Below, in pieces: positions 21,564 to 36,039 of a DNA stretch of 37,386 nucleotides. Both the position numbers and the translations under genes were made by a program. How positions within the stretch are numbered: position 1 is the first letter of the stretch; each line of letters starts with the position of its first letter. Origin of the DNA: an uncultured Puniceicoccaceae bacterium (GTDB taxonomy: Bacteria; Verrucomicrobiota; Verrucomicrobiia; Opitutales; Coraliomargaritaceae); assembly GCA_905479975.1 (NCBI GenBank), contig CAJQOS010000088.1, forward strand, positions 1 through 37,386, written 5' to 3'. The notes beneath the pieces are model-generated. The model worked only from the letters and a program-made list of their open reading frames with translations, had not been told where the DNA came from and did no database searches.

Positions 21564-22196
21564 TTATTTGAGGAGATAAATGACTTCTTCCGCCAAGTTT
21601 TTCGCATGGTCTGCGATGCGCTCGATTGATTTCGAAATGAATACTTTTTGAAAACGAGTGGGAGAGTCTGTGTCGTCATCCTCTGCGTGGGTGGTGAGGG
21701 TTTTGTAATTCTCCTGATGTAATTCGTTTACTTCTTTGTCGCGTGCGATGACTTCCTGAGCCAGTTCGAGGTTTTCTTCGACGAGCGCGGTGATGGCATC
21801 TCGCATCATTGAGCAAGTTAGCTTGCTCATTTGCTCAATGGTGACGGTGTTGCTTGCGCAGCCATCGCGGCTAAGAATGTCTTTGGCGCGGAGTGCGATA
21901 TTGTGGGCTTCGTCGCCTGCGCGTTCGAGGTCGTGGCTTGCCTTGATGGCGACGAGGATAAACCGCACATCGCTAGACACTGGGGATCGTAGCGTGATGT
22001 AGCGCACCGAGGCTTGATCGATTTCCACTTCGAGTTGATCAATCGCATCATCTAGAGCGATCGCTTGTTCGACTTTAGCCATATCGCCTTCGAGGTAACC
22101 GTCGATGGCGATGCGGGCGGCCTCGTTGGCCTTTTCGCCGATCAGGATGAGCTTGGTGCGTAGGTCTTCGAGTTCGTGGTGGTAGAATCGTTTCAT
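21564..22196 (-). CDS. phoU: Phosphate transport system regulatory protein PhoU
   Basis: PhoU links the Pst transporter to the PhoR kinase and represses the Pho response when phosphate is plentiful. The 210-residue protein is all helical and has two three-helix repeats. Each repeat has its metal-binding motif: DLERAGDEAHNIA near residue 90 and SIERIADHAKNLAEE near residue 193. It is the last gene of the pst cluster, 39 bp after pstB, the usual arrangement. phoB and phoR are not in the window. Confidence 0.97.
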   Translation of the reverse strand: MKRFYHHELEDLRTKLILIGEKANEAARIAIDGYLEGDMAKVEQAIALDDAIDQLEVEIDQASVRYITLRSPVSSDVRFILVAIKASHDLERAGDEAHNIALRAKDILSRDGCASNTVTIEQMSKLTCSMMRDAITALVEENLELAQEVIARDKEVNELHQENYKTLTTHAEDDDTDSPTRFQKVFISKSIERIADHAKNLAEEVIYLLK

Positions 22197-22235
22197 TGTA
22201 TTAGTGGTAGAGCGTTGTTTGATGTGGTGTGGGGA

Positions 22236-23036
22236 TCAACCAAAACGTCCGGAAATATAGGCTTCGGTTTGTGGGTCGCGTGGGTTCATGAAGATCTGAT
22301 CGGTCTGGCCGTATTCGATCAGTTTGCCGAGGTAGAAGAATGCGGTGCGGTCGGAGACACGTGCGGCTTGCTGCATACTGTGGGTGACGATCACGATGGT
22401 ATAATCCTTTTTCAGTTCATGGATGAGTTCCTCTACTTTCGCCGTGGCGATGGGGTCGAGTGCGGAGCAGGGCTCATCCATCAGTAGGATTTTCGGCTGC
22501 ACGGCGAGGGCGCGGGCGATGCACAGACGCTGTTGCTGGCCACCGGACATACCGAGCGCGCTTTCGCCGAGGCGATCTTTCACTTCGTCCCATAGCGCCG
22601 CGCTGCGCAGGCAGCGTTCGACGACTTCATCGAGGTCGCTTTTCTTTTTTACACCTTGGATGCGGAGGCCATACGCGATATTGTCGTAGATGGATTTGGG
22701 GAATGGATTTGATTTTTGAAAGACCATGCCGACGTGCTTGCGCAGTTCAATCACATCGACGTCTTTGTTGTAGATGTTGACGTCGCTGATTTTGATTTCG
22801 CCCGCTTTGATGCGTGCGATATCGATCAAATCATTCATGCGGTTGAAGCAACGCAGGAAGGTGGATTTACCGCAACCAGAGGGGCCGATGAAGGCGGTCA
22901 CTTCCTTCTCGTTAATATCCATGTTGATGTCAAAAAGTGCCTGCGAGTCGCCGTAGGCGAAGTCGAAGTCGCGGATCTTAATGATGGGCGTGCCTGTGCC
23001 TGCGCCTGCGATTTTGGTGGTGGGGGATGTATTCAT
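22236..23036 (-). CDS. pstB: Phosphate ABC transporter ATP-binding protein
   Basis: PstB drives phosphate import by ATP hydrolysis at the inner membrane. The protein has 266 residues with Walker [11 protein letters not shown]-loop [15 protein letters not shown], signature MSGGQQQRL, Walker B ILLMDEP and the switch His in VTHSMQQA. The NPFPKSI segment is characteristic of PstB. It lies between pstA and phoU on the minus strand. Confidence 0.98.
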
Positions 23037-23075
23037 TGGGAAATGCTGAAATTATGAAAAGTTGAAATGCTGGGC

Positions 23076-24281
23076 CTACCACTTGTATTTTTTACGGATC
23101 TTGATGCGCAGGACGATGCTGCTGAGTGCGAAGAATCCGACGATGAGGAGGAAGACGAAGGCTGCGCCGTATTGCATATTACGCGTGTATTCATTTTGTG
23201 GGATTTTCGCGCTGACGACATAGATGTGGTAGGGCAGTGCCATGACGCCTTGGAAAAAGAAGTCGGTTGGTTTTTCCAGCCCTTGCCATGGGAGTTGGTC
23301 GCGCAGTGCGTAGGCGGCGGTGAACATGATCGGCGCAGTTTCGCCGGCGACGCGGGCGACACCCATGATGGAGGAGGTTAGGATGCCGGGCAGTGCGTAG
23401 GGCAGGACGTTGGTGCGAACACTCGTCCACTTGGATGCGCCGAGTGCGAGTGAGCCTTCGCGAAAGCCTTTAGGGATGGCGCGCATGGATTCTTCGCTGG
23501 CAGCAATAATAACGGGGAGTGCCATGATCGCTAGTGTGAACCAGCCGGCGAGAAGCGAGACGCCCCAGCCGAAGAAGAGCACGAACATGCCGAAACCAAA
23601 CAAGCCGAAGACAATCGATGGCACGCCGGAGAGGTTGAGAACGGAGAGGCGGATCAGTTGCAGTGTTCTGCCGGGGGTGCTGTATTCACTGAGGAAGATG
23701 GCGCAGAGTATGCCGAGGGTGAGTGCGATCGCGATCGAACCGACGACGAGCAGACAGGTGCCGACGATAGCGGGGCCGATCCCGCCACCGCTATAGGCAT
23801 AGTTGCTATATACGTAGAGTTCGCTGGAGGGCTCTTTGTTGAGTGCGCGGTAGGCGTCGTCGCCATACATGAGGCGACCGTCTTTACGTTGAATGTCGAG
23901 TGCGTCGATCTTAGTTTCTAGTGTCTCGATTTGTTGTTCGAGCTCTGCAGCTGCGCTGATTTCGCCTGAGCCGAGGTTGCGACTTTTCGCGTTGAGTGAG
24001 ACGATTTGAGCTTTGCTTGCTTTCAGCTCGGCGTCGATTTCTTTGGGCTCAAAGACGTGTAGCGTCTGTGGCTTTTGGGTGAGGAACTCGATATTGATAA
24101 ACGGAGCCTGGGTGGTGAACACCGCTTTGGATCCGTTGATTGCTATATTCAGAAAGATATAGCCTGCGCAAATGATGACGAGATACGTAGCGAGTCGAAA
24201 CAAGCAGGAGGTGATTGATTCGATGGTGCCCGTCATCGATGGGCGTTTTGAGAAAATGTGGGATTCCTTTTGTGCGGTCAT
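23076..24281 (-). CDS. pstA: Phosphate ABC transporter permease PstA with periplasmic insertion
   Basis: PstA is one half of the membrane channel for phosphate import. The protein has 401 residues against about 290 in most bacteria. The first membrane helix (residues 30-50) is followed by a roughly 85-residue insertion (about 76-160) rich in Glu, Lys, Leu and Ala ([18 protein letters not shown]), predicted as a helical coiled coil facing the periplasm. The normal core follows, with the EAA-loop region [20 protein letters not shown] and [14 protein letters not shown]. It starts 27 bp after pstC. Confidence 0.96.
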
Positions 24282-24308: not shown

Positions 24309-26081
24309 TTAATCACCCAGTTTGCTGTATTTTTTGACGACCCACTGAGCGCCGTAGTTGATCAATAGGGAGGCAAAAAACAGGACGATGCCGACCATGA
24401 AGAGTGCGCGGTAGTGGAGGCTGCCGTGCACGACTTCGCCCATTTCTTGCGCGATGATACCGGTCATCGTGTGGACAGGTTCGAAGAACACGCCTGGGCC
24501 GGCGGTGAAGTCTGGAATCTTAATGCGATTACCAGCACAGAGTAGCACGACCATCGTTTCGCCGATCACGCGGCCGAAGCCGAGCATGATGGCGGAGATG
24601 ATGCCGGAGAGTGCGGTGGGCACGATGACGCGCATACTTGTTTGCAGGCGAGTCGCGCCCATTGCGAAAGAGGCTTCTTTGAAGTGGCGTGGGACGTTGT
24701 TAATCGCGTCTTCGGCGAGTGTGAAGATCGTGGGGATCGCCATGAGTGCGAGTAGGCAGCCTGCGGTGAATGCGTTGAGGCGTTCTTGCACCGGAAAGAA
24801 GGGCACCCACGAGAGCGCATCCATTTGTGAGAGCAGGCGAATGGCTTCGCCGAAGACAACGACGCCGAAGAACCCAATCACGACGGATGGAATGGCCGAG
24901 ATGAACTCAATGTAGGGCTTGATGAAATTACGCTCATTCGGCCCTGCGATCTGATTGACGTAGATGGCAGCGCCGACGCCGAAGGGAATCGCAAAGAAGA
25001 GGGCAATGGACGAGATGAGTAGTGAGCCCGTGAGTAGTGGTAGGAGACCATACCAGTCTTGCTGATCGCTGGCGGTGACCCAGTTCTTGCCTGAGAGAAA
25101 AGCGCCGAGCGCACGCCAGTTGGAAATCTCAGCATGCTGATCCCAGTTGGCTAGTTTCTGCTGGTGCACAGGAATTTGGTCGATGAAGCGCTCGTTGAGC
25201 TCTTTGAATGTTTCGATGCGTTTGTTGAGTGCGGCGTTGTTGAAATCGACGGCGTCGGCGCTCTGGAGGACTTTATAGATGGAGAGATCCATCTTTGAGA
25301 GGATGTCTGCGTAGCGCTCCTGCTCGTTGGTGACTTCGATGATCTCGGTATCGAAATCGACGGGCTGTATACTGTCGGCGAGTGTTGTGTATTCGGCTTC
25401 GAGGAGAGTTAGGTAGTCGGCGCGGTCAGCGTCGGAGACTGCGGCACTGGCCTGGATTGCTTCGCTGCGTTCGGTTTGATCGGATTCGCGAAGTAGGAGT
25501 GTGAATTTTGCGAGGTCCTCGTCGTTGAGCTTGTAGCTCGATTCTTTGACGTTCTCGATTCGAGTGGCGAAGTGGACGAGTGTTTCGTTGAGATTTTGAT
25601 TGGTGGTGTGCTGGTCGCGACTCTCGATGGCGACGTCCATTTTCTGTTTAACGAATTTCTTAAGGTCGGAGCCGACTCGCATGTAGCCGAGGAAGAGCGC
25701 TTTGGCTTCGGGGCTGAAGACTGTTTTCGAAATCTCGGCCTGAGACAGGCCGTCTGCTTTGAGATTGTTGATCCACTCGGCTTTGACGTCGTTGAGGTAG
25801 CGACTGAGCTCGGTGTAGTCGTCGCGCTGCTCTTTGAGGATGTCGACATACTCCAGTCCCGATACGCGATACTCTTCCAGGCTCTTGTGATACAGGCCGA
25901 TGAATCCGGCGCCTTCTTTGAATAAGAAGATGGTGATCAGGGCGAGCACGACGATGGCGACCATGGCATTGCTGCCGAAGAAGGTCTTGATGATGCTATC
26001 GGAGTCTTGGCCTAGAAACAGCGCGCGTCGCTTGCTGAATGCCGGAGTTGAATCCTTTTGAGTATGTGAGGGATCTGCCAT
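24309..26081 (-). CDS. pstC: Phosphate ABC transporter permease PstC with large periplasmic insertion
   Basis: PstC pairs with PstA to form the phosphate channel. At 590 residues it is almost twice the usual length (about 310). One helix at residues 38-56 is followed by about 255 extra residues (66-320), mostly charged and helical (for example [18 protein letters not shown]), which must lie in the periplasm. The transport core is normal: [44 protein letters not shown] and GRVIGETM. It has its own Pho-box-like promoter, separate from pstS. Confidence 0.96.
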
Positions 26082-26105
26082 GTAAGAATCGTAGGATAGA
26101 AGGGG

Positions 26106-26157
26106 ACGCTAGTTTGCCAAGGTTACAAAAGGGCTCATTTGGTTACAATTGTGTGAC
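26106..26157 (-). promoter_or_regulatory. Pho-box-like promoter of pstC
   Basis: On the minus strand GTCACAC and GTAACCA are 11 bp apart (4-bp spacer). A third heptamer, GTAACCT (26126-26120), lies exactly 8 bp before TAGCGT, a poor but acceptable -10. The third unit is 20 bp, not 22, from the second. The layout follows PhoB boxes of the 7+4+7 type. GTNAC is its own complement, so the strand comes from the -10 and the gene. Confidence 0.6.
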
Positions 26158-26172
26158 GGCGCGGGAGCCCAA

Positions 26173-26203
26173 AACAGGCCGTTGCTGAATGCAACGGCCC
26201 GTC
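26173..26203 (-). terminator. Hairpin terminator or attenuator between pstS and pstC
   Basis: GGCCGTTGC and GCAACGGCC form a perfect 9-bp stem with a 5-base loop, 26 bp after the pstS stop. On the minus strand it is followed by TGTTTTG. Such a structure would let pstS be made in excess over pstCAB, as is known for binding-protein genes. Confidence 0.72.
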
Positions 26204-26228
26204 GGCTACACTGAAATGTGGATGAACT

Positions 26229-27056
26229 CTAGTTAATCGAGAGGAAGTGCACGCGCTTGACGATCTCTTGACCTTCTGGACTGAGGCTGAAGTCGATGAA
26301 CTTCTGGGCGATCGGGCTGAGTGGCTTGCTCTTGTTGGTTAAGTAGTAGAGCGGGCGAGCGAGCGGGTAGTTCTTCGCGTCTGGTTGTGCGCCTTCAACA
26401 GGAAGCACTTTGACCCCAGGCGTGCTGATGTAGGCGAGACCTACGTAACCAATACCGTTCGGATTGCTTGCGACTTCCGAAGCGATTTGCTCGTTGCCGG
26501 CCATCTTCTGAGTGTCGCTACCATAGTCACGGGAGTTCATTGCCATCTTTTGGAAGACAGCGTAGGTGCCGGACGAGGTGTTGCGGGTGTAGGCAGAGAT
26601 GCTGCCAGTTTGTGCGGTGATACCGGACCAGTCTGTCACATCGCCAGAGAAGATCAGTTCGATCTCTTCGAGTGCGATGCCTTCCAGCGGGCTCGCTTCG
26701 TTGACGATCAGCGCGATGCCGTCTTTGGCAACGGTGATGGTGTGCATGTCGACACCTTTGGACTTCGCTTTCGCGATTTCTTTTTCCTTGGGGTCACGAG
26801 AGGACATGCCGATTTCGGCTGTGCCATCGATGACGGAGGCGACGCCAGTAGAAGAGCCTTCAGCGGCGATTTCGAATGCAACTTCGACGCCTTCTTTGGA
26901 CATCTTAGCTTTAAATGCTTCTGCGATTTGAGGCACCATCTTTGCGCCGAGTGTGTCGGAGCCTTTGATGACGATTGTTTCAGTCGCGTTGAGCGAAGCA
27001 CCGATTGTCAGTGCTGCTGCGAATGTGACTAGATTGCGAAGTGATTTTGTTTTCAT
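26229..27056 (-). CDS. pstS: Phosphate ABC transporter substrate-binding protein
   Basis: PstS binds inorganic phosphate in the periplasm and delivers it to PstCA. The 275-residue protein has a signal peptide (about 1-23, ending SLNA). The ligand residues lie in [21 protein letters not shown] and MSSRDPK, and the central loop [12 protein letters not shown] is also present. No lipobox is present, so the protein is soluble. It sits between the porin and pstC and has its own promoter region in the 96-bp gap upstream. Confidence 0.96.
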
Positions 27057-27086
27057 ATTTTAAATTAGTTCTCGTGAACTTTGTGA

Positions 27087-27140
27087 ATGATATCAGTGCT
27101 TTGTTACGAAGTGACGCCGCTGTCGTTACAACGGCGTCAC
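27087..27140 (-). promoter_or_regulatory. Pho-box-like promoter of pstS with four heptamers in register
   Basis: On the minus strand heptamers begin at 27140 (GTGACGC), 27129 (GTAACGA), 27118 (GGCGTCA, degenerate) and 27107 (GTAACAA), each 11 bp apart with 4-bp spacers. The last is followed by 8 bp and the -10 hexamer TATCAT (27092-27087). The predicted leader is about 24 bases. The distal part also folds as a hairpin (27111-27140: GTGACGCCG with CGGCGTCAC), which lies just after the porin stop and may help end the porin message. Confidence 0.7.
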
Positions 27141-27152
27141 ATGTTGAAGGAA

Positions 27153-28283
27153 TTACCAAGAAATGCGGATGCCGGATGTGAAGGTAAGGCCTTCGTATTC
27201 GTCATCGTCAGTGAGTGTGTAGCTGAAGCCGTTCTGCCACTTGAGCTTGTGGCCGTAGAGGTAGGTGTTGAGGCCTAGATAGAACTCGTCAGCGGACTCT
27301 GTTTTGCCTGTGGCTGTATTTTTCGCGTATTTTGTAACGCTAAGGACGGCGTCGTCGGACTCGATATGTGTGTAGCTGGCTGCGATCTGGAATGTATCGT
27401 TTAGATCGTAGAATGGCATGATTTGCAGCGCATAGATCTCGTTGCCGTCGAATTGCTCGGCGTAGGCAAGGTCAGTGTGGATGTGCTTCTTGCCGTTGTC
27501 GTATTGGAATGACAGCGAGATGATGTTCTCGTGTTTCGCTGTGCCGACTACATCGAGCTCATCGTTTTCGTCCGGCTCGTCTTGGTAGACGTAGTCGAGG
27601 CGAAGGAGTGCTTTGTCGGAGTCGAATTGCTCTGCGAAGTCGTAGCCTATTGAAGTGAGGACGAAGTAGCTGTTATCGAATGTTTTATCGAATTCTTCAG
27701 TTTGAGTGTTGGTGAAGACGCCAGCTTTCCATTGCCATTGATCGACATCGCCAGAAGCGGATGCACCTGCAAAATACTCATTTTTGAACCAGATGTTATC
27801 ACCGATGAGGCTGCGCTCGGTGCGGTAGAGCTTCTTAGAGGATGTGGCGCCGTCGAGTGTGAAGCCTGCGGATTGCTTGCCAATCTTGAGTTTCCAGTCG
27901 TCGGTCGGGTGCCAGGCGATGTAGGAGTCGGTGAGTCCGGTGTAAAGTGGCTGTGGGTTGCGAGGATCTAGGTTTGCCTCGGAGTGGACGGTGAAGTCGT
28001 TGAAAACCGTTGCCTTGAAGCCAACGCGGACGCGGCGCCATGCGGTGTTGCTGTCTGTCTCGCCTGTTTCATCGTTTTCGGTCGTGTAGTAGTCGCCTTG
28101 GAGGCGGCCACTGAGTGCGAACTTTTGGATGACGCTGTTATCGGCGTTCTTATAGAGAGTCGCGTAGCTCCAGATGTTGCCCATGTCCTCTTTGAGGTCG
28201 GTATTAAAGTCTGGGAGCGCGAATGCAGTGTTCGCTGCGAAGATGGCTGTTGTGAGGCCAAGGAGTTTTGTTGTTTTGTTCAT
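27153..28283 (-). CDS. Phosphate-selective porin (OprO/OprP family)
   Basis: This is an outer-membrane beta-barrel that would admit phosphate or other anions. The 376-residue protein has a signal peptide (about 1-22, ending AFA) and an alternating strand pattern. It ends in SGIRISW, with a C-terminal aromatic residue as in proteins assembled by the BAM complex. The N-terminal part, with LSGRLQGDYY, WRRVRVGFKATVFNDF and LKIGKQ, fits the Porin_O_P family. Its place directly before pstS and its Pho-box promoter support phosphate uptake. Selectivity for phosphate or polyphosphate cannot be told from sequence. Confidence 0.87.
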   Translation of the reverse strand: MNKTTKLLGLTTAIFAANTAFALPDFNTDLKEDMGNIWSYATLYKNADNSVIQKFALSGRLQGDYYTTENDETGETDSNTAWRRVRVGFKATVFNDFTVHSEANLDPRNPQPLYTGLTDSYIAWHPTDDWKLKIGKQSAGFTLDGATSSKKLYRTERSLIGDNIWFKNEYFAGASASGDVDQWQWKAGVFTNTQTEEFDKTFDNSYFVLTSIGYDFAEQFDSDKALLRLDYVYQDEPDENDELDVVGTAKHENIISLSFQYDNGKKHIHTDLAYAEQFDGNEIYALQIMPFYDLNDTFQIAASYTHIESDDAVLSVTKYAKNTATGKTESADEFYLGLNTYLYGHKLKWQNGFSYTLTDDDEYEGLTFTSGIRISW

Positions 28284-28341
28284 TTTGTAGTTGTTGTTTG
28301 AAATTGTAACATGCCTGAGGGCGTGTTGTGTTTCGTGGGCT

Positions 28342-28384
28342 ATAGTATGCTTAAATTGTGACGAAATGATGACTCTAATGTTAC
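28342..28384 (-). promoter_or_regulatory. Pho-box-like promoter of the porin gene
   Basis: On the minus strand GTAACAT (from 28384), GTCATCA (28373) and GTCACAA (28362) are spaced exactly 11 bp apart; then 8 bp, then the -10 TACTAT (28347-28342). A fourth weak unit, TTCACCA, starts at 28395. The GTCAT half-site matches the known E. coli Pho box core. The predicted leader is about 50 bases. Confidence 0.72.
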
Positions 28385-28529
28385 AGTTTGGTGAACTGTT
28401 ACAATATTGCGCGGAATGGTACGGGTTTTGTGAATTTTGAGGCGTTTGTTACGAGGTTTGTTGCATGGCCGGATATGGCCCCTGATTTGGGCTCATTCGT
28501 GTGAACTTTGTTACAGCGAGGTGGCTCGT

Positions 28530-28572
28530 GTTACGCCGGTGTAATACCTTGGCGATGGGCTTGAATTATAAT
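28530..28572 (+). promoter_or_regulatory. Pho-box-like promoter of the TonB-dependent receptor
   Basis: GTTACGC (28530), GTAATAC (28541) and the weaker GCGATGG (28552) are 11 bp apart; the last is 8 bp before a perfect -10 TATAAT (28567-28572). The predicted leader before the ATG at 28650 is about 70 bases. Spacing is the same as at porin and pstS. Confidence 0.68.
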
Positions 28573-28649: not shown

Positions 28650-31600
28650 ATGAAATATCATTTCTTAATAAAGCCATCGTTCATCAGCCTAGTGCTAAGT
28701 GTTGCCGTCGCTCCGGCGTATGCATTGAAATTTGAAATTCCTAAAGAGCTGCAGGCGCAGGTGGATGCTGAAGCTGCGACTAAAGAGGCAGCGTCCGTTA
28801 TGGCGTTTGATTCTGCGCCGACGGCGGAGGCTGAGGTTGCCGCTGGGGCGGAGGCTTCTGTGGTTGAGCCTGTGGCGTTTGAGGTGATGGATGCGGTCGA
28901 CCTCGATGAACTCGATGCGAGTGAGGGGCGTATTGTGGGGCGCGTGGTGGATAAAGATACTGGCGCACCTGTGAGTGGCGTTGCGATCCTATTGGAAGGG
29001 TCTGATTTTGGCACAGTGACCGATGCGGACGGCGCATATCGTATCGAGGACGCGCCAGCTGGGGTCTATACACTCAGTTTTATTAAAGGTGGCTATATCG
29101 AAGCGAACGTCACGGACTATGAGGTCGTTGGCGGTGAAGAGCAGGAGTTTGCATTTGCGCTACCGCCGCGTCCTGCAGAGATGTCAGATAATGTCTATGA
29201 GTTGCAGGACTTTTCGGTGTCTGCGGAAGAGGCGAATCAGTTGATGATGAACTTAGAGCTGAGGATGAATTCGGATACGATGCTGGATGTGATGTCGGCT
29301 GAGGACTTTTCTAAGTTTGCGGCAAGTGATGTTGCGGAAGCTATTAAGCGTCTTCCTGGCGTAACGATCCAAGAAGGTAAGTTTGCGGTCATCCGTGGCC
29401 TGGATGAGCGTTATACCAGCACTTTGTTTAATGGTGTTCCTGTGCCGAGTCCAGATCCGGACCGTCAATCTGTGCCTCTTGATTTATTTCCCTCAGAAGT
29501 CGTTAAGAATCTATCGATTTCGAAAACATACTCGCCAGAGTTTCAGGGGAATGCGGCAGCTGGCACGATTAATATTTTGACGAACTCTTATGCTGAAGAC
29601 TTTACCGTGAATCTATCGATGGGCGCGAGTTGGAATGAGAATGCGCAAGATGACTATATCGATGGTAACCGTGCTCGCCGCTCAATTGATTATGGTGATT
29701 TGGGCTCGCAGGGAAATGTGGACACTGCGATTGCGGCCGCGAGTGGTGGTCGCTTGACGCCGCGTAAGAAGGATGCGCCGCAAGAGTATGAATATGCGAT
29801 CGATATCAGCGATACGGTTGAGTTGAAGGGGCGTAAGATCCGTTACTTGGCAAGTGCTTCGCATGAAGAGGACTACAAAACAGTCACTGGCACGAAGCAT
29901 GATCAGTTTGCGAATCCAGGGCGTGTGTTCCCGATCCCAGGCAATCCTATTATCATTAGCTCGGGGGATTTGGCGCTGGGGCAGTTGGGGTATTCGGCTG
30001 GCGATTTTGACACGACTGAATCGCTTGCATCCGATCGCGATACATACTTAGCCTCATTCCTTGGTGACTTAGACGAAGAGGGGATGCACCAGTTGGGCTA
30101 CACCTTTTTTAAAGTGAACATCGATGATGCGATTTCGAACGTTCAAGAGAATGGCAGTTTTGAGGGAGTCTCAGAAGAAGATTTGCGCAATCAAGGAGGT
30201 TTCTATGAGGGGTATGTTGATTTATACAATGGCAATGGTGGTTATGATGCGCTGCTGGAATCAGGGCTCTACACTTCATTGATTACGGATATTGAGCGTG
30301 AGTTGAAAACGCACCAAGTGAATGGTTCGCATGATTTGGACGATCTGTTCTCTGGCTTTTCGGTTAACTGGATCTATAGCCATGCAGATACGGAGCAGAC
30401 TGAGACGAATTCATTCGTATCCAATGCGATTCGCTTGCCGGATGGGAGCTATAATACGGGGCAGAATACGGATATGGGGGATTCGTTGGCGCCGTCGGCA
30501 GCATGGCGTAAGATTGAGGAAGAACAGGATTATTATCAGGGCGAACTCACGCACGTGTATGAGCTGTCTGATGATATGACACTAGAGTCTAGCCTCGGCT
30601 ATTCTAAGGAGAATACTGACCGTGATGTGTATCAAGAGTTCTACTCGTTCTCGGCGGGTGGCTTTAAGGAGTTAACCAGTGGGAATCTACTGACATCCTC
30701 CAATTCAGATTTAGATGAGTTGATTGCGGATGCGGCTGGCTATCCTGATACGCAGAGCGTGCGTGTGGATGCGCAAGCTGAAGGTGAGCGCGAGATCGAA
30801 GCCTATTTCTTTAATGGAAAGCTAAGTATTGGCGAGAAGTTTGATGTGATTGGTGGTGTGCGCTATGAAGATATTTATATGAGCACCACGACGAGCTCGG
30901 CGGGGGACTTCTTTAACTTTGAATTGCTGCGTGACACGTCAACGGGTGGTTCGACGCCTGACCGTGCGATCGAGAATACACAAATCTTGGGAATCGGAGA
31001 TCCTTTGGATCCTGATTATGAAGGCTTGATTGATGAGGAGCATTGGCTGCCAGCTTTTACCTTTATCTATCGACCAATCGAGCCAGTGCGTGTGATTGCT
31101 AGCTATTCGCAAACAGTCGCGCGTCCGTCCTTTAAAGAGTTTACCTATGTGACGACTCAAGATCCGAGCAGTTTGGATTATTTTAGCGGTAATCCGACGC
31201 TTGAGACATCGGATGTCGAGAGCTTTGATTTGCGCGTTGAATATGTCGCAGAGAACGGCGATTTGTTTGCGATCGGTGGTTTCTGGAAGACTGTGGATAA
31301 TCCAATTGAGAAAACTTCTTTGTATGGCGCAGTTCAAACCGATCTCTATTTTAATAATCCTAACTCGGTTGATATTTATGGTCTCGAATTGGAAGCCCGT
31401 AAATCTTTGGATTTTTTTAATGATGAATTTCTCTCCTACTTCTCAGTTGGAGGAAACTTGGCATTGATTGAAGCTGAGATCGATGTGGCTGAGTCGTTTC
31501 AGCAATTGCTCTCAGGAGGGTTTTATCTTGAGAGTGGTGAGCGAATCGGAGGTGATTATTCTGCGAATGCATCGACGGGTGGTTACGATTCAGTGGATGA

Positions 31601-31970
31601 TAGTCGTCCGCTGTTTAATCAGCCAGAGTGGATCGCGAATGTGGATATTACTTTCGAGCAACCTGAGTGGGGCACTCGTGCGACCTTGGCGTTGTTCACG
31701 CAGAGTGATGTGTTGGTTTCTGCTGCGAGTTATTTGGGCGGTGTTGGTAATACTGTAGCTGTTCCTGATCGTTATATGGACTCCTATTACCAATTGGATT
31801 TTACGCTGAAGCAACGGCTCAATGATACCTGGACGCTAGGCTTCTCAGCCAAGAATTTAACGGATACTGAACGTAGCGTTAGCTACGATGATGACTTGGT
31901 GTCCGCGTCGGACAATGAAACATATAAGCTCGGGCGTGAGTATAAAATCTCACTTTCAGCGACTTTTTAA
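28650..31970 (+). CDS. TonB-dependent outer-membrane receptor
   Basis: These receptors import large or scarce substrates across the outer membrane with energy from TonB. I use the ATG at 28650 (1106 residues), which begins with a signal peptide (MKYHFLIKPSF to APAYA, about 25 residues). An acidic Ala-rich linker (30-92) is followed by a carboxypeptidase-regulatory-like domain (about 94-172, GRIVGRVVDKDTGAPVSGV), a plug domain (about 205-320, with VIRGLDERYTSTLFNGVPVP and GNAAAGTINI) and a 22-strand-type barrel ending in ISLSATF. Its divergent placement beside the porin, the Pho-box promoter and the secreted proteins downstream suggest a phosphorus compound as substrate. This is inference; the family does not reveal the ligand. 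Confidence 0.93.
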   Translation: MKYHFLIKPSFISLVLSVAVAPAYALKFEIPKELQAQVDAEAATKEAASVMAFDSAPTAEAEVAAGAEASVVEPVAFEVMDAVDLDELDASEGRIVGRVVDKDTGAPVSGVAILLEGSDFGTVTDADGAYRIEDAPAGVYTLSFIKGGYIEANVTDYEVVGGEEQEFAFALPPRPAEMSDNVYELQDFSVSAEEANQLMMNLELRMNSDTMLDVMSAEDFSKFAASDVAEAIKRLPGVTIQEGKFAVIRGLDERYTSTLFNGVPVPSPDPDRQSVPLDLFPSEVVKNLSISKTYSPEFQGNAAAGTINILTNSYAEDFTVNLSMGASWNENAQDDYIDGNRARRSIDYGDLGSQGNVDTAIAAASGGRLTPRKKDAPQEYEYAIDISDTVELKGRKIRYLASASHEEDYKTVTGTKHDQFANPGRVFPIPGNPIIISSGDLALGQLGYSAGDFDTTESLASDRDTYLASFLGDLDEEGMHQLGYTFFKVNIDDAISNVQENGSFEGVSEEDLRNQGGFYEGYVDLYNGNGGYDALLESGLYTSLITDIERELKTHQVNGSHDLDDLFSGFSVNWIYSHADTEQTETNSFVSNAIRLPDGSYNTGQNTDMGDSLAPSAAWRKIEEEQDYYQGELTHVYELSDDMTLESSLGYSKENTDRDVYQEFYSFSAGGFKELTSGNLLTSSNSDLDELIADAAGYPDTQSVRVDAQAEGEREIEAYFFNGKLSIGEKFDVIGGVRYEDIYMSTTTSSAGDFFNFELLRDTSTGGSTPDRAIENTQILGIGDPLDPDYEGLIDEEHWLPAFTFIYRPIEPVRVIASYSQTVARPSFKEFTYVTTQDPSSLDYFSGNPTLETSDVESFDLRVEYVAENGDLFAIGGFWKTVDNPIEKTSLYGAVQTDLYFNNPNSVDIYGLELEARKSLDFFNDEFLSYFSVGGNLALIEAEIDVAESFQQLLSGGFYLESGERIGGDYSANASTGGYDSVDDSRPLFNQPEWIANVDITFEQPEWGTRATLALFTQSDVLVSAASYLGGVGNTVAVPDRYMDSYYQLDFTLKQRLNDTWTLGFSAKNLTDTERSVSYDDDLVSASDNETYKLGREYKISLSATF

Positions 31971-31996
31971 GACTGTTGCACTATGTTTTCAATTCA

Positions 31997-32028
31997 GTCG
32001 CAGAATCGTAACGAAGCAATGCGAGAAT
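31997..32028 (+). promoter_or_regulatory. Weak Pho-box-like site before the beta-helix gene
   Basis: GTCGCAG (31997) and GTAACGA (32008) are 11 bp apart, and 8 bp later comes GAGAAT (32023-32028), a poor -10. The geometry equals that of the stronger sites, but the bases match less well. The gene may also be read from the receptor promoter, since no terminator is seen in the 120-bp gap. Confidence 0.35.
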
Positions 32029-32090: not shown

Positions 32091-33566
32091 ATGAAAAAGA
32101 TTCTTCTTACGTCGCTAGCTTCTGCTTGTGCATTGAGCGCTAGTTATGCTCAAACAATTGTGTCTTCGGATGTTACTGCCGACACTACATGGTCTGGAAC
32201 TGTTGTTTTGGATGGCACAATTTTTGTTAAAAACAATGCTGCCCTGACGATTCTTCCTGGCACAATTGTTCGTGGCCAGCCACGTTCTGCCGATGGCGCT
32301 GCGGGTGCTCCTGGTTCATTGATCGTCACTCAAAGTGGTCAGGTTTTTGCTGCTGGTAATGCGGGCAGTGAGATCATCTTTACCACTGCCGCGATTGACG
32401 AGGACGGCAATGGCATTCCTGATGATTCGAATGCGGATGGTTACTTGGACCAGTGGTCTGCGGGTAAGGCATTCTATGATGCTGATCCAAAGGAAACACC
32501 GCTGGGCACGGTTGCAGCAGGTGATATCTCCGGCGCAGCATCACGAGGTCAGACGTTATTGAGCTCCAATAATACACTCTGGGGTGGTCTGATTGTTCTA
32601 GGTAATGCACCTACGAATTTGGGCACAGCGGTATCGGTAGCCAAAAAAGGTTATATTGAGGGTCTCCCTGCGACTGCAGATACACTCTACGGTGGCGATA
32701 TTGCGAATGATAATTCCGGTGTGCTTCGTTACGTTTCTGTGCGTCACGGTGGCGACCAGCTTGGTAGTGCTAATGAGATTAATGGCATCACACTGGGCGG
32801 TGTGGGCTACGGCACTACACTCGAATTCTGTGAAGTCTATAACACTTATGATGATGGCTTTGAGTTCTTCGGTGGCACCGTCAATACGAATAACCTCGTC
32901 GTAACTTTTGCAGGTGACGATATGTTTGATGGTGACCAAGGTTGGACTGGTCAAAACCAGTTCTGGGTCGCAGTGCTTCCTTATAATAACATTGGTGATT
33001 CCGGTGGTGATAAGGGCTTCGAGTTTGATGGTGATGACAGTGACAAGAATGTTGACTTTGATGGTGTGGTCACTCCGTTCCCGAATTATGCCGTGTATAA
33101 TGCAACGATCGTTGCAAACTCTGCTGCGACTGGTTTGAGCACGCCTCAAAACGGAACGATTGATTTGAAGTCCAACTTCAGTGGTCAGATCTTTAATACG
33201 ATTCTGGTTAACACTGGAGCTAGTGACGCCGTGTCAGTGAGCACTACTAATCCTGTCACAATCGACTACTGCACATTCGACGATACCGGTGCTACCACTG
33301 GAACTGTTGCAGCTGTTGCAGCAGGTGCGAACAATGTCGTGAACAACTTCGGGTTCGCTGGACTTAAGGGAGAAGACGCAGGTGTCGCAGGCGGCATCGA
33401 TCTGCGCCCTAACCTTGCGTTCTCAGGTGTGACTTCAAGCTTGGTGGTGCCAAATGGCTATGCGCAAGTTGCTTATCGCGGTGCGGTTGATCCATCGACG
33501 CTTGCTGGTGCAACTTGGACAGCTGATTGGACGGTTCTCAGCGAGAGCGGTATCCAAGTCGACTAA
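32091..33566 (+). CDS. Secreted beta-helix-like protein of a receptor-linked family
   Basis: The 491-residue protein has a signal peptide (MKKILLTSLASACA to SYAQ). The body looks like a right-handed beta-helix: TWSGTVVLDGTIFVKNNAALTILPGTIVRG, of which TILPGTIVRG is the hallmark, then WGGLIVLGNAPTN, EINGITLGGVG, DDGFEFFGGTVN and GDDMFDGDQGW. These motifs fit a widespread family of surface or secreted proteins, often called lipoprotein or T9SS-target in other phyla and often encoded beside TonB-dependent receptors. Asp-rich stretches (DEDGNGIPDD, DGDDSDKNVDFDG) look like calcium sites. No PEP-CTERM or T9SS tail is present. Function is unknown; a partner of the receptor upstream is likely. Confidence 0.85.
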   Translation: MKKILLTSLASACALSASYAQTIVSSDVTADTTWSGTVVLDGTIFVKNNAALTILPGTIVRGQPRSADGAAGAPGSLIVTQSGQVFAAGNAGSEIIFTTAAIDEDGNGIPDDSNADGYLDQWSAGKAFYDADPKETPLGTVAAGDISGAASRGQTLLSSNNTLWGGLIVLGNAPTNLGTAVSVAKKGYIEGLPATADTLYGGDIANDNSGVLRYVSVRHGGDQLGSANEINGITLGGVGYGTTLEFCEVYNTYDDGFEFFGGTVNTNNLVVTFAGDDMFDGDQGWTGQNQFWVAVLPYNNIGDSGGDKGFEFDGDDSDKNVDFDGVVTPFPNYAVYNATIVANSAATGLSTPQNGTIDLKSNFSGQIFNTILVNTGASDAVSVSTTNPVTIDYCTFDDTGATTGTVAAVAAGANNVVNNFGFAGLKGEDAGVAGGIDLRPNLAFSGVTSSLVVPNGYAQVAYRGAVDPSTLAGATWTADWTVLSESGIQVD

Positions 33567-35900: not shown

Positions 35901-35949
35901 GGAGTCATACGATCGTGGCTCATCTCGGGCCAGGATCAATGCCCGTAGT

Positions 35950-35965
35950 GTTACTTTATTGTGAC
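35950..35965. promoter_or_regulatory. Candidate Pho-box-like pair before the 35202-35900 gene
   Basis: GTTAC (35950) and GTGAC (35961) are 11 bp apart, the same spacing as at the phosphate genes, 50 bp upstream of the minus-strand start. No good -10 lies 8 bp further on either strand, so this may be chance. Confidence 0.3.
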
Positions 35966-36039
35966 GTGCGCTTGATTCGTAGTGATTGTGGTTAGCTGTT
36001 GTGCGGTGTCTTCGGGGGCGAAATAGTCTTCATCACTAG

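Follow-up and report, generated by a model that had tools for sequence, protein, structure and literature searches.

Here, we describe the upstream regions of a pst locus in an uncultured Puniceicoccaceae bacterium, analysed in a 37,386-nucleotide stretch of DNA (the window) from a 2.85-Mb genome of 117 contigs. The minus strand of the window carries phoU, pstB and pstA (21564–24281), pstC (24309–26081), pstS (26229–27056) and the gene of a Porin_O_P porin (27153–28283), and the plus strand carries a TonB-dependent receptor gene (28650–31970, with ATG 28650 preferred over TTG 28572 as the start). PstS was named from TIGR02136 (188.8 bits, cut-off 206.6) together with its context, and its nearest named relatives are from MAGs labelled Opitutales, Opitutia, Puniceicoccaceae or Verrucomicrobiota. 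PstC and PstA (23076–24281) both have a long N-terminal extension, the family match beginning at residue 327 of 590 and at residue 163 of 401, respectively. A phoB-phoR operon is found on another contig of the same genome, behind mnmG.

An 11-bp repeat upstream of phosphate genes

A preliminary description of this DNA noted by eye that GTNAC-type units recur with an 11-bp period upstream of porin, pstS and pstC, and expected an exact GTNAC-N6-GTNAC pair less than once in the window. Both statements hold: the units are far above chance by shuffling and by comparison with the upstream regions of relatives, and the exact pair occurs three times (two of these inside 26106–28572) against a shuffle mean of 0.35, with none of 100 shuffles reaching three. 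Across the whole genome the exact pair occurs 17 times per strand. GTNAC is its own reverse complement, so that its counts cannot give strand, and searching the genome with the exact pattern was rejected as a site finder because it is both too strict and strand-blind.

Upstream regions of 250 bases before pst genes were collected from 110 loci (30 plus the best 80 of 316, some genomes being in both), and near-duplicates were removed before repeat counts and unit fitting (pstS, 103 to 81; pstC, 99 to 74). GTNAY pairs at 11 bp number 35 in the 81 non-redundant pstS regions (mean 3.1 per distance) and 24 in the 74 pstC regions (mean 1.95), with no peak before pstA (0), pstB (1) or phoU (0) of the compared loci. 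Base autocorrelation was abandoned as a period finder, its signal being swamped by a 3-base period, and a search for repeated 4-mers without a preset word puts TAAC with an 11-bp spacing at the top (26 of 155 sequences; 0.6 in shuffles). The fitted unit is approximately T[CT]GT[AC]AC[AC]N[AT]A, with a core of roughly [CT]GT[AC]AC, and about two thirds of 202 pstS and pstC regions exceed the 95% null level of a matrix fitted on such regions. These tandem 11-bp units, with seven conserved and four less conserved bases, have the layout by which Pho boxes are defined in excerpts of PMC4415409.

A held-out matrix from 143 regions outside the genus was scanned over the window, with 60 shuffled windows as the null. 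Pairs of units rank pstC first (21.8; best shuffled window, 18.6), and both triples and quadruples rank porin first (quadruple score 22.6; best shuffled window, 14.5). The pstS array, scored without a −10 requirement, reaches 13.0, above the 90% level (9.2) and below that shuffled maximum. For four units with TA...T 8 bp after the last heptamer, only porin (22.6) and pstS (13.0) stand out, with the next of 725 hexamers at −9.5 and the best of 100 shuffled windows at 5.2; the receptor and pstC layouts proposed in the preliminary description score −22.5 and −20.7. A possible operator of the gene beyond the receptor (32091–33566) lies at 31973–32016 on the plus strand, its four-unit score of 13.6 being above the 90% level and below the 60-shuffle maximum, and is weak with model R1, described below (3.7 bits, E 3.0). 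The second-best unit pair of the window (35946–35967, minus strand) scores 17.2 against the 60-shuffle maximum of 18.6 and adjoins an unnamed minus-strand ORF.

Model R1, which is direction-aware, was built from 18 sites of relatives, excluding the genome's own sites and including near relatives such as G005 (porin 97% identical). Nine of 26 candidates were dropped (five pstC sites, the forward phoB sites of L121 and L140, the own porin site and L043), and one G005 porin site was added. On the own 2.85-Mb genome (150 of 204 candidates scored), R1 yields three matches at E 10 or better, at porin (E 8.5e-8), at pstS (E 2.1e-4) and, weakly, on the minus strand before phoB (E 3.8), these E-values being rough because the calibration was shortened. 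On 57 genomes, with stricter filters and at most 99 candidates scored per genome, R1 yields 61 matches at E ≤ 0.05, spread over 35 genomes, about three matches being expected; with this strict model and these filters, 22 of the 57 genomes have none. Matching by hand places 17 of the 18 training sites in the 57 genomes, one of them on two contigs, so that 18 of the 61 matches arise by construction.

Most of the matches are near phosphate-acquisition genes or phoB: 48 of the 61, and 30 of the 43 outside the training set, have a pstC, porin, receptor or phoB from our gene lists no more than 5 kb away, gene positions having been typed from lists that include only part of the phoB genes. Among the remaining 13 matches, some precede Porin_O_P, PhoU-domain, DUF3450 or TonB plug-domain genes, whereas for others no target is convincing; those in G031:C3, G034:C7, G012:C87, G002:C159 and G050:C16 are of the latter kind and may be false. 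In G005, the porin-pst region is present on two contigs (G005:C32 and G005:C51) with identical match values, possibly as an assembly duplicate.

Promoters of porin, pstS and pstC

The porin operator (28354–28397, minus strand) has four 11-bp units, AGTTCACCAAA CTGTAACATTA GAGTCATCATT TCGTCACAATT, and is kept in G005 and G010. Its predicted −10, TACTAT (28342–28347, minus strand), lies 8 bp past the last heptamer, and by eye this distance is repeated in relatives, before TATCTT in G010 and before TATTTA in G005, the latter not fitting the TA...T pattern. The pstS operator (27099–27142, minus strand) is likewise followed at 8 bp by a predicted −10, TATCAT (27087–27092, minus strand). Its four units were described as being in unbroken register; four positions at 11 bp are indeed present, but the third (GGCGT) scores −9.1 and is no unit. 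Across the genus and family, a permissive pattern detects a unit 8 bp before TA...T or TATAAA in all 13 pstS regions; in L043 this is a different unit. The boxes of porin and pstS take the place of a −35 at a fixed distance from the −10, and the 8-bp distance that had been claimed for four promoters stands for these two but not for pstC, which has its own −35, or for the receptor, where no unit is found at that position. A promoter and terminator scan of the window listed neither the porin nor the pstS promoter, nor the hairpin between pstS and pstC.

Past the porin stop, a 13-bp hairpin (27111–27140, minus strand; −23.9 kcal/mol, z −6.2) is spelled in the same letters as pstS units 1–3, and is found in the alignment only in genomes with porin adjoining pstS (own, G005 and G010). 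The terminator after porin and the pstS operator may share DNA. This overlap, and the fact that exact pattern matches read on both strands, would suit an explanation of the repeats as chance or as a by-product of hairpins, in which inverted repeats and terminators create self-complementary GTNAC. We hold this to be extremely improbable, as pstS regions of relatives without an adjacent porin keep four positions in register, and the porin and pstC sites are high in the held-out scans.

The pstC operator (26138–26159, minus strand) has two units, CCGTCACACAA TTGTAACCAAA, with an extra GTAAC at 26122–26126 that is out of register (20 bp). The promoter scan found a core promoter, TTGGCA-N16-TATCCT (26093–26120, minus strand), and TTGGCA-N16-TA...T is conserved in nine of nine genus members (own included), with varying spacer letters. 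TAGCGT, 8 bp after the last unit, had been taken for the pstC −10 and is ruled out, as the letters at this place differ in relatives, in contrast to the kept TTGGCA-N16-TA...T. Between pstS and pstC, a terminator-like hairpin (26176–26200, minus strand; z −2.2 for a 56-base stretch) is followed by T-rich sequence, which would account for a separate pstC promoter. In distant relatives (L078, L085, L087 and L097), CTTGAC or CTTGGC just past the pstC box seems, by eye, to lie in an arm of a terminator-like hairpin.

Direction of the arrays at the receptor and phoB

The receptor had been counted among the phosphate genes, and its wider context supports this: homologues adjoin pst genes in six other genomes, though not in all (G027, G020, G013, G028, G023 and G018), homologues of the neighbouring gene 32091–33566 in G028 and G022 are preceded by model matches, and a block (L191) of receptor, surface-type protein, PEP-CTERM protein and two further ORFs, one on the other strand in the window, recurs in G013. 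Upstream of the receptor, a GTTAC-N6-GTAAT pair lies at a distance from the predicted −10, TATAAT (28567–28572, plus strand), that is constant in 11 genomes, and the −10 is followed by a TTG at a distance kept in relatives. The Pho-type site proposed here survives as this pair and its fixed distance, but the heptamer 8 bp before TATAAT, GCGATGG, scores −7.5 and is no unit.

Read on the strand opposite the receptor, the putative operator (28510–28545, minus strand) consists of ATTAC, GTAAC and, with a 9-bp junction, GCCAC and GTAAC, of which two are strong and two weak (−1.5, 8.8, −3.4 and 9.5). At the pair, the reverse strand outscores the forward strand in 11 of 11 genomes, by margins from 0.6 to 8.7 bits; the reverse score is the best of seven offsets, and rescoring in a fixed register changes these sums by no more than rounding. 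In regions with several matches, one GTTAC was chosen by hand. On average, the reverse-unit score has its peaks at offsets 0, 11, 20, 31 and 42, which include one 9-bp junction, with units above zero in 8, 11, 5, 4 and 7 of the 11 genomes, respectively. Past the pair, T....TTG follows at a fixed distance, six columns being kept in at least nine of 11 genomes versus 0.03 expected at random offsets, a conservation to which common descent contributes.

These scores and peaks suggest that the receptor box is probably inverted. They also speak against a possible, if doubtful, alternative, that it is an ordinary forward box and that the opposite-strand score is a quirk of a near-palindromic unit: the reverse strand is higher throughout, though by just 0.6–2.8 bits in four genomes, and the peaks recur in the reverse register. 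A forward box would agree with the sequence past the pair, where, counted from the G of GTTAC, TTG at 42–44 is kept in 11 of 11 genomes and T at 37 in 10 of 11, position 37 sharing the 11-bp register with the −10 of forward pstS sites. It would also agree with the best pair of the region, which is forward in G028 and nearly equal on the two strands in G020.

At phoB, a four-unit array is on the strand opposite the gene. Family phoB regions are inverted in 15 of 15 cases with a score above 8, and in 18 of 20 overall. Family pstS sites are forward in 17 of 18 regions above threshold and pstC sites in 13 of 15, a result that is partly built in because forward pstS and pstC regions served to fit the matrix; the phoB and receptor regions were outside the fit. 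Of the 20 family phoB loci, 12 carry an upstream R1 match, and all 12 are inverted when strands are compared by hand, with L139 also having a weaker forward match and L112 and L114 being weak (E 0.94 and 2.9). Outside the family, R1 matches at phoB are inverted in L138, forward in L121 and both in L140. Four of the 20 family regions (L123, L124, L125 and L137), with no clear box, were dropped before distances were taken; 13 of the 16 examined have a downstream TTGAC, at 32–34 bp from the array in 12 and at 23 bp in L119. Just beyond the phoB box of L127, the only minus-strand frame of at least 100 residues is a 127-residue one antisense to mnmG, so that no gene is evident there that the box would serve forward. 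At both the receptor and phoB, the inverted arrays appear to face away from their genes, and the polarity at the receptor is a weaker claim than that at phoB.

PhoB and known Pho boxes

The candidate PhoB has TIGR02154 as its best NCBIfam match (234.6 bits, below the curated cut-off of 296.2). It shares 42 of 106 C-terminal residues with E. coli PhoB, and seven residues that we take to be DNA contacts in E. coli (R193, H198, R200, R201, R203, T217 and R219) are identical here. The earlier view that the base content of the units marks a lineage-specific PhoB site is not supported: the units fall within the E. coli consensus, this lineage's matrix picks out the E. coli phoA box as the top pair in the 100 bases upstream of that gene (10.7), and the presumed contact residues are the same. 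It is very unlikely that the sites are bound, in place of PhoB, by a different response regulator of the OmpR/PhoB family whose motif is a similar direct repeat, given that they lie at pst, porin and phoB and that these residues match, even with 33 PhoB-model matches in the genome and a candidate below its cut-off. In support of such a regulator, M. tuberculosis PhoP also reads 7-bp direct repeats with 4-bp spacers, according to excerpts of PMC4832192.

The E. coli Pho-box consensus is given as CTGTCAT-A(AT)A(TA)-CTGT(CA)A(CT) in excerpts of PMC3465305, and the CTGTAAC and CTGTCAC units found here fit its second half and depart from its first, ending in C rather than T. Like the boxes of E. 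coli phoA and pstS, the sites have 11-bp tandem units, a TGT-A core and a box in place of the −35, and the gap at porin and pstS equals that of phoA (GTCACGG-N8-TATAGT). The 11-bp, 7 + 4 likeness to E. coli that had been recognised by eye is upheld by this gap, the 11-bp peak, the unit fit and the held-out scans. The sites differ from those of E. coli in favouring GTAAC and GTCAC over GTCAT, and in having four positions in register at porin and pstS. Streptomyces complex Pho operators share the use of several direct-repeat units of varied strength, with GTTCACC-type units and PhoP instead (excerpts of PMC4415409). Putative Pho boxes have also been predicted at plcP in marine heterotrophs, and plcP is reported from Verrucomicrobia as well; these concern other genes, and the available text of PMC4796936 gives no Verrucomicrobia box. 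A limited literature survey, including parts of PMC4796936 and PMC12872454, found no description of a Pho box of marine Verrucomicrobiota.

For an inverted PhoB site, the nearest precedent met is E. coli phoB, where, in excerpts of PMC6194859, a weak PhoB site on the antisense strand of the promoter lies at the −10, beside a forward activating box, and represses at high PhoB. Its TGTCA tracts are 5 rather than 6 bp apart, which may be compared with the 9-bp junction in the receptor array. The phoB array described here differs in having four units, mostly 32–34 bp upstream of TTGAC, with the forward direction scoring lower in 15 of 15 regions; an E. coli-type antisense autorepression site at the phoB −10 was rejected, the array being upstream of a conserved TTGAC where this is present (13 of 16). 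An inverted arrangement like that at phoB and the receptor was not recognised in the sources of this limited survey, as far as their available text goes.

Periodicity, conservation, geometry, polarity by score and gene context are the observations of this analysis. The neighbouring genes, the period of 11 bp, the 8-bp spacing from the −10 at porin and at pstS, the phoB-phoR operon and the genome-wide scans together make it very probable that the repeats are Pho boxes, the operators of PhoB, and form a small Pho regulon; from this we infer PhoB binding, phosphate control and activation. Phosphorylated PhoB would bind head to tail, each 11-bp unit taking one monomer. The porin and pstS boxes would substitute for the −35, their last unit lying 8 bp upstream of the −10, and PhoB would therefore be expected to recruit RNA polymerase in the manner seen at E. 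coli phoA. The pstC gene would use its own promoter behind a terminator-like hairpin, with the two-unit box upstream of a normal TTGGCA-N16-TATCCT, and at the receptor, and at phoB elsewhere in the genome, the array would run in the opposite direction. As judged from sequence, the sites at porin, pstS and pstC are ordinary predicted Pho boxes that had been correctly spotted by eye; the inverted arrangement at the receptor and phoB is new relative to the preliminary description, and less ordinary.

These sites yield a model of the PhoB site that can be used in Puniceicoccaceae and their relatives among marine Verrucomicrobiota, and they connect the phosphate response with a TonB receptor, a surface-type protein and a phosphate porin. 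We tentatively suggest that box direction is informative in this clade, in that forward boxes over the −35 would switch on uptake genes and the inverted phoB and receptor arrays would give a different output. If so, candidate outputs are autorepression, delayed activation from upstream, or a ceiling on phoBR. The conserved inverted arrays raise a testable question, whether PhoB can act while facing away from a promoter.
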